Shown: positions 2 to 5,132 of the stretch, piece after piece
Layout: each line of letters starts with the position of its first letter
How positions within the stretch are numbered: the stretch's first letter is position 1
Translations under genes and position numbers: made by a program
Notes under the pieces: model-generated
What the model saw: the letters and a program-made list of their open reading frames with translations, nothing else
Databases searched by the model: none
What the model was told of the DNA's origin: nothing
Assembly (NCBI GenBank): GCA_021844725.1
Contig: JAKBSX010000290.1
Coordinates: forward strand, 1 to 5,132
Direction of reading: 5' to 3'
Source of the DNA: Actinomycetes bacterium
GTDB lineage: Bacteria; Actinomycetota; Acidimicrobiia; Acidimicrobiales; Acidimicrobiaceae
DNA: 5,132 nt

Positions 2-538
2 GCTCACGACAACGAGGTTGAGGCTTTCCGAGCCCAGATGGATGTTTTGGGCACCAGGACCACTCTCTTGGTTGACACCTATGACATCGAACAAGGGATC
101 AAGAACGCCATTCAGGTGTCCCGACAGATGGGGGTGCCGGGTCCAGAAGCCATTCGTATTGACTCCGGTGATCTTCAGGTCGAAGTTCCCCGCGCTCGTG
201 ACTTGCTCGATCGTCTGGGTGCCATCCAAACCAAGATCGTGGTTTCCTCCGATCTCGACGAGTTCAGCATCGATGCCCTGGCGGAGGTTCCCGTAGACAC
301 CTTTGGAGTTGGTACCCGGCTGGTCATGGGTAGTCAAGCTCCCACATCGGGATTTGTGTACAAACTGGTGGCGATTGAAGACTCGCCTGGTCATCTGCGC
401 CCCGTTGCCAAGCGCTCCATCGGCAAAGTGGAAGTTTCGCACGGCGTCGGCAACTCTCCCCACCCCCCCCGACGATGCCGTAACGCCGACCTGTCGGCAG
501 GCTGCGAGCGTACACCTCAAAGACCGCCTGCCGGTTAG
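2..538 (+). pseudogene. pncB: Nicotinate phosphoribosyltransferase, internal fragment (5' end off window, 3' end replaced at an inverted junction)
   Basis: The enzyme joins nicotinate to PRPP to make nicotinate mononucleotide, the first step of NAD salvage (Preiss-Handler pathway), in the cytoplasm. The frame is open from base 2. It shows family hallmarks in order: EAFRAQMDVLGTRTTLLVDT near the start, RIDSGDL at about 158-178, the KIVVSSDLDE strand at about 233-262, and DTFGVGTRLVMGSQAPTSGF followed by VYKLV at about 296-372. This corresponds to the middle of a protein usually about 430-450 residues long. Similarity continues through RPVAKRS (about 401-418) and is lost by about 428. From there to the stop at 536-538 the frame reads only antisense of the pncB N-terminus found on the other strand. 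The C-terminal part is absent, so the piece cannot encode a working enzyme as arranged. Family assignment is very secure; the broken state may be a sequence artefact. Confidence 0.9.
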
Positions 539-611
539 CCACCTTGTCAGGCAGGCTGCCGGCGATCATGGTCAGCTCATACAGGTCGGTGTTAAGGGAG
601 GTGTTACTCAT
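410..611 (-). pseudogene. pncB: Nicotinate phosphoribosyltransferase, N-terminal fragment with a frameshift
   Basis: Reading from ATG at 611-609, the first 50 or so residues match the N-terminus of the family: NTDLYELTMIAGSL, then AVFEVYARSLPTGRRYGIV. At the run of eight G (minus strand of 463-470) this frame loses similarity. The next frame continues it with GRVADAVRNFHFADGAL, ending near 410. Removing one G restores a single frame (VGGVGRVADAV), so the tract is one base too long, by sequencing error or real slippage. The start is supported by AAGGTGAG (624-617) five bases before ATG and by a promoter just upstream. Beyond about 410 the strand is antisense to the internal pncB fragment, so the two halves of the gene face each other. 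Together they lack the stretch between N-terminus and middle, and the C-terminus. Confidence 0.85.
463..470. repeat. C8/G8 homopolymer at the pncB frameshift
   Basis: Eight consecutive C on the plus strand, preceded by CCCCA at 458-462. On the minus strand this tract sits exactly where the pncB N-terminal reading frame breaks. Seven bases instead of eight would keep the frame. Such tracts are prone to sequencing error and to replication slippage, and the sequence alone cannot tell which applies. Confidence 0.85.
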
Positions 612-704: not shown

Positions 705-950
705 TCACCCAACCATCTTCGATGTCTCTTGGTATAGCTTGGCAAGCACGGCCAAGCACAGTACCAAGCACCCGGCGGCAATGGCTAGGGATGTCTTCGA
801 CTGAGGGTTACTGACTTGAAGGCCGACTTCAACGCTCATGAATAAAGTAGCCAATGACCATACCATGATGATGGGCGAGCTCCAGACGTGAGTTTTCTTT
901 ACAGTTGGTCTGGGCTTTGGTGATGAACGCGCCTTCTTTCTGCGGAACAT
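705..950 (-). CDS. Small two-helix membrane protein of unknown function
   Basis: An 81-residue protein that I do not recognise. Residues 1-20 are strongly basic (MFRRKKARSS, then PKPRPTVKKT) and should stay in the cytoplasm. A first hydrophobic stretch spans about 24-45 (IIMVWSLATLFMSV) and a second about 54-71 (LAIAAGCLVLCLAVLA), separated by a short polar loop with N48, Q50 and K52. The predicted form is a helical hairpin with both ends inside. The ATG at 950 lacks a clear Shine-Dalgarno, but TTGCAA and TAGAGT, 17 bases apart, place transcription initiation one or two bases before the ATG, so the message would be leaderless. It lies upstream of and in the same direction as the pncB N-terminal piece, which has its own promoter, and is divergent from the MazG gene. 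The gene is probably real, because composition and topology are coherent and nothing better occupies the stretch. Confidence 0.7.
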   Translation of the reverse strand: MFRRKKARSSPKPRPTVKKTHVWSSPIIMVWSLATLFMSVEVGLQVSNPQSKTSLAIAAGCLVLCLAVLAKLYQETSKMVG

Positions 951-1721: not shown

Positions 1722-1925
1722 GTGACTCCGGATGATGACATAATTTCGCACTGGTTGGAACACGGCAAGGCATTAAAAGCTAAATGGATGATTCACGCTA
1801 TAGATTCCTGGAATCTTGAGGATTATCCGGTCTACGTCACGGCAGATCAGAGCCTCGATGACAGTTTGGCGGAGCTTCGCTCGCATTTTATGACCGGCGT
1901 GGTGCAAGTTTACAGTATCAATTGA
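1722..1925 (+). CDS. Hypothetical 67-residue protein
   Basis: I do not recognise a named family. The protein is small, soluble and acidic, with no signal peptide or membrane segment. It begins MTPDDDIISHWLEHGKALKA, then has KWMIHAIDSW (21-30), a DYPVYVTADQS strand-turn (34-44), a short helix SLAELRSHF (48-56) and the terminal strand GVVQVYSI (59-66). That order suggests a compact alpha/beta fold. The GTG start is the only possible one in frame before an upstream stop (TAG at 1695-1697), apart from an internal ATG at 1785 that would remove the first third. It follows the mazG-like gene by 51 bases in the same direction and may be co-transcribed with it as well as having its own promoter. The coding call rests on amino acid composition and start context. 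Confidence 0.6.
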   Translation: MTPDDDIISHWLEHGKALKAKWMIHAIDSWNLEDYPVYVTADQSLDDSLAELRSHFMTGVVQVYSIN

Positions 1926-2150: not shown

Positions 2151-5132
2151 TCCACTGCTTTGTATCCGGGTACGCAGAGTTATTATCAACCAGGGCAAGG
2201 GCCTGCGGTTAATCCATGCACCAATGGGTCATGCTGGAGTACTGCTCTGGGAACGCAGAACGCACACGAGATTTATCCACCACAGACCACTCAATATAAT
2301 CCCGAGGCCAACACCATCTTCTCGATTCCCGGAGCCAGTTGCGGGACTTATTGGTATACCTATGTGCAGGGAGCATTCACGGGCACACAAGGTGAATGGG
2401 TCTATGTTGGCTACGGCCCGCCACCAGGAAATGGCGCCGCCCCCGCCTGGAGCTTCAACCAGTCACAACCGGTTTTCAAGCCTGGCTTCCCGGGACCGTA
2501 TTGGCAAAAATATGGCAACCCTGATTCCAACCCATTGAATGCCACAACCAACCTGGCGGGCGAGATCACCGGACACGTTACGGTCTGGACCGGATTCGTC
2601 ATGCCTTCGGGTAATTGCCTGAACAAGTCGCCCATTTATGAGGATCAGTATCCCACCGGAGCGGCAGTCATGGATCTCTATGTGGACAACACCCCGCCCC
2701 AGGTCAACCCCTTGAACGTTAGCTACGACAACACCGCTCCCGTCAACCCCAATGCTCCGGCCGGAATGACATTCAATGGCGGCATCGGTTATCTAACTGG
2801 ACAGGTCAACATGAATGCAGTCACAAGCAATTGGACATTGTCGGCTTGGATATATCCTCAGGCCAATCCACAACTAAGCGAAACGTATCAAATGATTTCG
2901 TATGTTGGTTCGCCGGGTAATGGTTATGGTTTGGCTCTGGGCTCCAACAATGGAATTACTGAGCTTTCGGTGTATGACAATAACACCGGAGCTTATTGGT
3001 CGGGGGTTGCGTATCCGTCCTCATGTATTAGCTCGTGGTGTTTAGTAACCGCTACCGATAACGCTGGAACTGTTACTTTTTACGTCAACGGCGTTTCTGA
3101 GGCAACGATCACTGCTGTCAACCCATTTACCGCCCCCAATAACGACTTCCAAATAGGTGAATATCCCAACGGTGCACCTGGCCAGGATTTCTTTGAGGGT
3201 TACATGAGCAACGTTGGGGTCTGGAGCTCCACGCTCACCGCAACTCAGGTTGCCTCTCTGGATACCGCGGGATGTGATCAATTTATACCAACCGGATGTT
3301 GGCCACTGACCGAGCCGAGTGGGTTAACCGCCGCCGACGTCTCAGGTAACTCCTTCAATCTCTCTGCAGCCGGCGCAATTGATGTTGGAAATCAACTCGG
3401 TCCCTTCTCAGGGACTACTGCTTTTGGTTTCAATCTAGCTTCGTACGCCTACACTTATACTCCTGTGCAAACCACTACCAGCGCATTCACTCTTTCCGCG
3501 TGGATACAACCGAAATCAGCCACTGCCAACACGGTGAGTGAGGTTGTCGTCTATAACGGACAAATGAACAGTAATGGATACGGACTAGGTCTGTTGGGCT
3601 ACACGGGCACCCAGATTCCGGTATATGATTTGGGACTCGTTTACAACAATAATATCTGGATCGACTCCAATTACGCATTGCCGAACTATTGCTACACACA
3701 GTGGTGTTTGGTAACTCTTGTGTATAACGGGAGCGAGCTGATTTGGTATCTGAATGGAACTCAGGTGGCTGCCATTTCGGGGGCATGGGGTATAAACACG
3801 CCAACCGGCTGGACCACTATCGGAATTCCCGGCTTCTACAGTAACTCCACGTACACGTACAGTGGGAATATTGGCCAGGTAGGGATTTGGAGTACTGCTC
3901 TCAGCGCGACTGATGTCGGCTCTTTATACACTAATAGCGGCGCAGCGCAGTTTTCTCCTTCTGCTTATTGGGTCATGAATGACTCCGGGGGGCAGACTGT
4001 GGCCGACAGCTCGGGAAATGGCAACACCGCTTATGTGAGCCCCTCCCCCAATTTTGGGGCCCCTCAGGGTGGTGTTACGTTGTCGTCTGCCACAGGTCCG
4101 ATAACCACGGCCAGCGGGGATACCAGCGCGTCGTTCGATGGGAGTACTGGTTACATTCAAACTCAAAGCGCTATCAACCCACCGGATGTGTTTTCCATGG
4201 CGGCATGGTTCAAGACTACAGCGTCCAACGGCGGAATCATCATGCAATTCGCCAACGGGTCCCCAAGTTCGGCATCCGCGTATGATCGCGAACTCTACGT
4301 CGGCACTGATGGCGATCTTTATTTCGGTGAGTGCTGCGGGGTAACGACTATAAATTCCTCCACCCCGGTCAACAACGGTCAGTGGCACTTCGCGGTGGGA
4401 GTGAGCAATGGATCAACTATGTCGTTGTATTTAGACGGGACTTTGGTGAGCACTATCACTTTCGCCGAGAACCAAAATTTCACTGGTAATTGGTTTATCG
4501 GCGCCGGAAACCCTGGTGGATGGCCGAACACCGGTAATGGGTATTTCAACGGCCAACTTTCACAGGTGGCAGTATACGATAACGCGCTATCGGCTTCCCA
4601 AATCAGTGACTTATACCAATATGCAGGATACGGCACCCAAGGCACCGGTCAACCAACTTACGCCTCTACGGTTTTGTCGTATTCACCTGTAGATTATTGG
4701 CCTCTTCAGGATCCAGCTGCCAGCCCCATCGTACAAAACATTGCGCCTAATCCAGAGAATGTAGTAACAGAAGGCTACACCCCTGGTACTGGAGTGCAGC
4801 AGATGCAAATTACTTATAGCTGGCAGCATGAACCAGACTTAGGGAATTCATCCCCTGTGAATCCTGACTTCTATCGAGCTGGAACCAAGGAGTATTTCCT
4901 TTATCTCTGGACTTCTGCTACGAATTCCACCTTGAGTGACTCGGTACCAACTGGAACTGTACCCATTACGATTATGGATAACGGCCGAAGCTCTTTCTCT
5001 TACTCTGAAACCGTTCCCGAAGGGGTTTATCCACACGGTTGTTTGGTTGCTGAGGACTGGTTGGGCAACACGCAGGCTTCTACCGTGCAGGGGTGCAATG
5101 CAACCTCTACCGCGACATTGCAATCCGGCGGA
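2031..5132 (+). CDS. Large secreted LamG-repeat (concanavalin A-like) protein, 3' end beyond the window
   Basis: One frame stays open for 1034 codons to the last base. Residues 1-40 are a signal peptide: short basic start (PRALNNWW), hydrophobic core LTVLLPLTGAILFLMFF, cleavage probably after VSA (38-40). Residues 41-235 are beta-rich and Cys-containing, with no family recognised, ending in DNTPP (219-223), common in bacterial Ig-like domains. Three LamG jelly-roll domains follow: about 246-414, 424-637 and 645-866. Each carries an S-x-x-AW strand (W273, W491, W726), a Y-V/L-N/D-G hairpin and a closing helix such as GQVGIWSTALSATDVGSLY. Domains 2 and 3 open with a W strand and a SGN turn (W424, W647). 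W890 starts another such strand, but residues 900-1034 look Ig-like. LamG domains bind glycans or proteins, so a surface adhesin or polysaccharide-binding role is inferred; a C-terminal anchor or enzyme could lie beyond the edge. ATG 2031 gives the longest signal peptide; ATG 2040 or 2052 would also work. Confidence 0.92.
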   Translation, partial: MNIMAAGMPRALNNWWLTVLLPLTGAILFLMFFGAETVSASTALYPGTQSYYQPGQGPAVNPCTNGSCWSTALGTQNAHEIYPPQTTQYNPEANTIFSIPGASCGTYWYTYVQGAFTGTQGEWVYVGYGPPPGNGAAPAWSFNQSQPVFKPGFPGPYWQKYGNPDSNPLNATTNLAGEITGHVTVWTGFVMPSGNCLNKSPIYEDQYPTGAAVMDLYVDNTPPQVNPLNVSYDNTAPVNPNAPAGMTFNGGIGYLTGQVNMNAVTSNWTLSAWIYPQANPQLSETYQMISYVGSPGNGYGLALGSNNGITELSVYDNNTGAYWSGVAYPSSCISSWCLVTATDNAGTVTFYVNGVSEATITAVNPFTAPNNDFQIGEYPNGAPGQDFFEGYMSNVGVWSSTLTATQVASLDTAGCDQFIPTGCWPLTEPSGLTAADVSGNSFNLSAAGAIDVGNQLGPFSGTTAFGFNLASYAYTYTPVQTTTSAFTLSAWIQPKSATANTVSEVVVYNGQMNSNGYGLGLLGYTGTQIPVYDLGLVYNNNIWIDSNYALPNYCYTQWCLVTLVYNGSELIWYLNGTQVAAISGAWGINTPTGWTTIGIPGFYSNSTYTYSGNIGQVGIWSTALSATDVGSLYTNSGAAQFSPSAYWVMNDSGGQTVADSSGNGNTAYVSPSPNFGAPQGGVTLSSATGPITTASGDTSASFDGSTGYIQTQSAINPPDVFSMAAWFKTTASNGGIIMQFANGSPSSASAYDRELYVGTDGDLYFGECCGVTTINSSTPVNNGQWHFAVGVSNGSTMSLYLDGTLVSTITFAENQNFTGNWFIGAGNPGGWPNTGNGYFNGQLSQVAVYDNALSASQISDLYQYAGYGTQGTGQPTYASTVLSYSPVDYWPLQDPAASPIVQNIAPNPENVVTEGYTPGTGVQQMQITYSWQHEPDLGNSSPVNPDFYRAGTKEYFLYLWTSATNSTLSDSVPTGTVPITIMDNGRSSFSYSETVPEGVYPHGCLVAEDWLGNTQASTVQGCNATSTATLQSGG

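Follow-up and report, generated by a model that had tools for sequence, protein, structure and literature searches.

Two facing pieces of one pncB gene joined at a five-base overlap: a probable in vitro fold-back chimera

The locus

The window, by which we mean the whole stretch of 5,132 nucleotides analysed here, opens with two pieces of one gene that face each other on opposite strands. The gene is pncB, encoding nicotinate phosphoribosyltransferase: frames on the facing strands of this one window both match the NCBIfam model NF006698 (nicotinate phosphoribosyltransferase), the plus-strand frame at E 1.2e-53 over profile positions 215–348 and the minus-strand frame at E 6.4e-16 over positions 13–62, scores that for both halves lie below the model's whole-protein cut-off, as is usual for fragments. 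With one gene family reached by two independent matches, the fold-back exceeds chance. A single full-length pncB open reading frame is absent from the window, and two facing pieces with a frame slip are found instead. The features are as follows, with residues and codons numbered on P0121, a full-length relative described below.

2–428, plus strand: middle of pncB, with residues 203–344 at 2–427 and base 428 as the first base of codon 345
413–423: additional, imperfect complementarity of the two joined sites on the upstream side of the sense 3′ end, with five certain matches, four possible matches and two mismatches
424–428: junction tract CAAAG; plus-strand agreement with P0121 ends after 428 and minus-strand agreement at 424
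424–611, minus strand: start of pncB, with residues 1–62 running from 611 to 425 and base 424 as the first base of codon 63
463–470: eight C's in a row, read as G's on the coding strand, at which the N-terminal pncB frame slips by one base, as judged by frame comparison with P0121

The remainder of the window carries other reading frames. Positions 1077–1670 on the plus strand encode a pyrophosphohydrolase of the MazG type (Pfam MazG, E 3.2e-11) whose N-terminal part is long. Its twin P0236, of 197 amino acids and 96% identical, supports a start at 1077, and most of the other listed matches span about half of the query. Nine stretches in viral contigs matched the pattern used for MazG relatives, and none was confirmed. 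From 2031 to the window's end at 5132, also on the plus strand, runs a reading frame for 1,034 or more residues that is still open at that end; the protein contains three Laminin_G_3 stretches (Pfam), and its start, judged by eye, resembles a signal peptide. Two small open reading frames, 705–950 (minus strand) and 1722–1925 (plus strand), match no Pfam or NCBIfam family. Rfam returned no matches in the window, and the window as a whole has no match in phages or plasmids. A transposon- or phage-borne rearrangement was considered and set aside, there being no such family among the seven window open reading frames scanned against Pfam.

A near-identical gene in normal order

Both halves are held, in normal order, by P0121, a pncB protein of 447 amino acids with three member sequences. 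It was found in a protein search whose length limit admitted full-length relatives, and shows 99% identity across the 140 residues of the query region; among the 120 matches listed of 4,070, the next best identity is 68%. On the plus strand, where the pncB piece begins at the window's edge, 140 of 142 residues at 2–427 are identical to P0121 203–344, the differences being G221R and G251E. The agreement then stops abruptly, with none of P0121 residues 345–352 (0/8) identical to the plus-strand continuation. On the minus strand, reading from 611 downward, 48 of residues 1–49 are identical (the exception is T26N), as are all 13 of residues 50–62 beyond the frame slip. P0121 and the window's pncB thus differ by three substitutions in 204 residues, frame slip aside; the two are not identical, and P0121 may derive from another strain. 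The order read in the window is sense codons up to 344 followed by antisense codons 62 to 1, and residues 63–202 and 345–447 are missing from it.

These alignments sharpen the account given by the first-pass annotation. Its assignment of the plus strand up to about 427 to the middle of nicotinate phosphoribosyltransferase is confirmed, and so is its expectation that one relative's pncB would align to both strands. Its N-terminal half on the minus strand is likewise genuine, comprising residues 1–62, but ends at 424 rather than at about 410, so that the overlap it placed at about 410–427 contracts to 424–428. The short shared sequence at which it had proposed a crossover is indeed there, as the five bases CAAAG. 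The interval between the halves, put at about 160 residues, is 140 (63–202), and neither the absence of residues 345–447 nor the frame slip in the N-terminal half had been mentioned.

The junction tract and its surroundings

The limits of the tract, 424–428, hold for any synonymous codon choice in P0121. In a normal gene the points joined here lie 846 nt apart (codons 63–344, counted on P0121). When inverted joins were drawn at random in the pncB genes of three relatives, with 100,000 draws each, an overlap of at least five bases arose in 0.46%, 0.50% and 1.6% of cases. An overlap this rare (0.46–1.6%) would seldom come from blunt joining and suggests annealing. Five-base inverted pairs separated by at least 100 nt are themselves plentiful, numbering 697, 1,597 and 772 in three relatives' pncB genes, and a special site is therefore unnecessary for the join.

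Pairing between the joined sites appears to be one-sided. As the searched genomes yielded no DNA of P0121 itself, its bases at both sites were deduced from the protein sequence, and matches are accordingly given as certain or possible. In contrast to the partial pairing at 413–423, the stretch to the right of the tract, 429–439, has one certain match, four possible matches and six mismatches. The contrast weakens over longer stretches, with eight certain, six possible and eight mismatched positions at 402–423 and two, five and fourteen, respectively, at 429–449. At least five matches among the seven determinate positions on the left would arise by chance with a probability of about 0.013, a figure for a stretch picked after inspection. 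A misprimed extension would predict pairing on the upstream side of the sense 3′ end, whereas a repeat used in recombination should extend to both sides of the crossover.

A survey of positions 1–1100 for inverted repeats returned five pairs, of 12–17 nt and 81–92% complementarity, none with an arm at the join. One of them, I4, has arms at 83–96 and 713–726 that flank the join and was taken for chance. Positions 478–494 and 581–597, both within the N-terminal pncB half, form an imperfect 17-nt inverted repeat (88% complementary) that is probably also due to chance.

The frame slip and the substitutions

The run of eight C's at 463–470 is the longest single-base run in the window. Homopolymers are the usual place for sequencing errors, and because the frame slip is located in the window's longest one, a sequencing error is a possible cause; the slip may represent either such an error or real decay. 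Among 110 full-length homologues, glycine is kept at position 251 in 105 and at position 221 in 65, and position 26 is variable. These homologues are those first listed in the P0121 search with at least 400 residues, four shorter entries and five fragments already listed having been dropped. The change at the conserved G251 would fit error or decay. Since the frame slip lies in the same gene as the join, a real pseudogene still has room.

Relatives and other copies of the join

Within the named genomes, a relative is encoded in 148 stretches, of which the best 80 were kept, with a best identity of 59%. The nearest loci come from an Actinomycetes bacterium (L001, 59% over the fragment), a Frankiales bacterium (L002, 58%) and an Acidimicrobiaceae bacterium (L003, 52%), and the genomes of the first and third (G001 and G003) fall in one order. 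The search was extended to further genome sets of 3, 298 (the order of G001), 298 (the order of G003, whose listed genomes are largely those of the preceding set), 1, 17, 395 (the class of G063), 35 and 42 genomes, in which the best match by E value is 53% identical over residues 3–435 and shorter matches reach 58%. The window is probably actinobacterial and near Acidimicrobiaceae, and its own species did not turn up among these genomes. As for gene order beside pncB, the window's four remaining proteins found no counterpart at E 1e-4 in the 80 loci kept; in a set of 16 loci (13 with short flanks) no match was better than E 0.22.

Of the 298 genomes in the order of G001, 81 match P0121 at E 1e-100 or better, in 82 stretches that each lie on one strand; these one-strand matches are weak evidence, because the search was not designed for facing halves. 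The joined plus-strand open reading frame of 178 amino acids has no near-identical protein among the 120 matches listed of 188, the best being 65% identical, in a search that viewed proteins of up to about 311 residues and had cluster members outside its view. None of the six alignments inspected reproduces the joined frame, and the 32-base N-terminal pncB piece has no exact match in viral contigs. Among the titles listed from an open-licence library, none deals with an inversion in pncB.

A probable fold-back chimera

We consider it probable that the join is an in vitro fold-back (inverted) chimera within the ordinary pncB of an uncultured actinobacterium, made before or during library making and perhaps in the course of DNA amplification. 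A sense-strand copy with the terminus GGCAAAG-3′, whose final base is the first base of codon 345, would have come loose; its last five bases would then have annealed to CTTTG at codons 61–63, farther upstream on that sense strand or on a sister one; and a polymerase would have copied back through the gene's start and past it. Copy-back from the annealed sense-strand 3′ end, as proposed, would account for sense codons up to 344 followed by antisense codons 62 to 1. Chimeras of this type have been described for multiple displacement amplification (MDA): their published signature is an inverted join with a deletion, at which points less than 10 kb apart share a short tract (PMC1855051, PMC4595205). 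For single-cell E. coli amplified in this way, the former reports that 406 of 475 chimeras were inverted, that 337 of these 406 joined points less than 10 kb apart, and that the complementary tracts at the joins measured 2–21 nt (PMC1855051). In a reanalysis, overlaps mostly measured 5–8 nt and peaked at 6 nt, whereas distances ran from 0 to beyond 5,000 nt and peaked at 250–300 nt (PMC4595205). The 846 nt of the pncB join fall within 10 kb, and inside the range of distances in the reanalysis, and its five-base tract falls within 2–21 nt.

Like the first-pass annotation, which had already preferred an amplification chimera, we favour this reading because of the inverted orientation, the overlap length, the distance, the one-sided pairing and the near-identical gene in normal order. 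It is unproven, and the frame slip permits a real pseudogene. Counting against the chimera are the frame slip and the substitution at G251, which a chimera alone would leave unexplained, and the distance, since 846 nt lies off the 250–300 nt peak (PMC4595205).

Alternative explanations

A fixed rearrangement in the living cell is the strongest rival, although we regard it as unlikely. This strain's pncB would have been broken by an inversion in place, spanning about 846 bp, or else by a partial duplication in inverted orientation, and would then have decayed; for NAD the cell would depend on de novo synthesis or on some other, intact copy of the gene. The normal order of P0121 leaves the order in this strain unsettled, because the window's strain differs from its database twins at three of 204 pncB residues and has a MazG twin that is 96% identical. 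P0121 may even share the window's record, that is, an intact copy and a broken second copy may sit in one genome. The second lesion in the same gene, the slip at 463–470, speaks for decay together with the substitution of a glycine kept in 105 of 110 homologues, but the slip falls in the longest homopolymer, where sequencing errors usually occur, and the pairing at the join is one-sided. The overlap is also short for a chromosomal inversion: in a Salmonella study, five of seven tested inversions were verified, the deduced inversion cut-off was 12 bp of junction homology, and chimeric reads were screened against at 7–9 bp (PMC3411829). At 5 bp the pncB join does not reach this 12-bp homology, which is a guide rather than a strict definition.

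A computational misjoin, in which an assembler fused two unrelated ends so that no molecule carried the join, seems very improbable. The join does lie about 425 bases from the window's left end, and contig ends, if the window's edge is one, are presumably error-prone. Assemblers, however, use overlaps or k-mers much longer than five bases, and because five bases are so far below these, a molecule or read with the join was probably needed.

Most improbable of all is a reversible inversion (an inverton) at an unusually short imperfect inverted repeat, turning nicotinate salvage on and off: both orders of near-identical sequence exist (P0121 and the window), and an imperfect repeat can be drawn at 413–428, with 10 certain to 14 possible matches of 16 positions as deduced from protein, in keeping with the mismatches common in inverton repeats (PMC5903667), yet the perfect core is only 5 bp as against repeats of 10–40 nt (PMC11892184) or typically 10–20 nt (PMC5903667), and the crossover sits at one end of the imperfect repeat. 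No recombinase was found in the scan against Pfam, which took in seven of the 41 listed window open reading frames; one might be encoded elsewhere in the genome.

Significance

The chief value of the present case lies in quality control: where a public contig carries such a fold-back, false genes and false inversions can result. Joins of this kind can be judged quickly by how long the overlap is, how far apart the joined points are and on which side the pairing lies. Should the inversion be true, nicotinate salvage would be either lost in this particular strain or subject to a switch.

Comparison with known systems

As a member of its family (NAPRTase, NF006698), the window's gene is recognisable in both halves and has P0121 as a full-length relative; it differs in consisting of two facing pieces that lack residues 63–202 and 345–447 and contain a frame slip. 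Intragenic and promoter invertons, products of site-specific inversion, resemble it (PMC11892184, PMC5903667) in presenting two orders of near-identical sequence and a segment of less than 1 kb. The pncB join departs from them in its five-base perfect core, in a crossover at the edge of the imperfect repeat, in the single junction seen and in the lack of a recombinase among the seven open reading frames scanned. Spontaneous chromosomal inversions in Salmonella (PMC3411829) share an inverted join at short homology and part from it in length, the cut-off deduced for them being 12 bp and the overlap here 5 bp. The inverted chimeras of MDA (Lasken and Stockwell, 2007, PMC1855051; PMC4595205) are alike in their inverted orientation, intervening deletion, span of less than 10 kb and short complementary tract; the pncB join differs in being known from an assembled window rather than from reads and in its distance, which at 846 nt is off their 250–300 nt peak.
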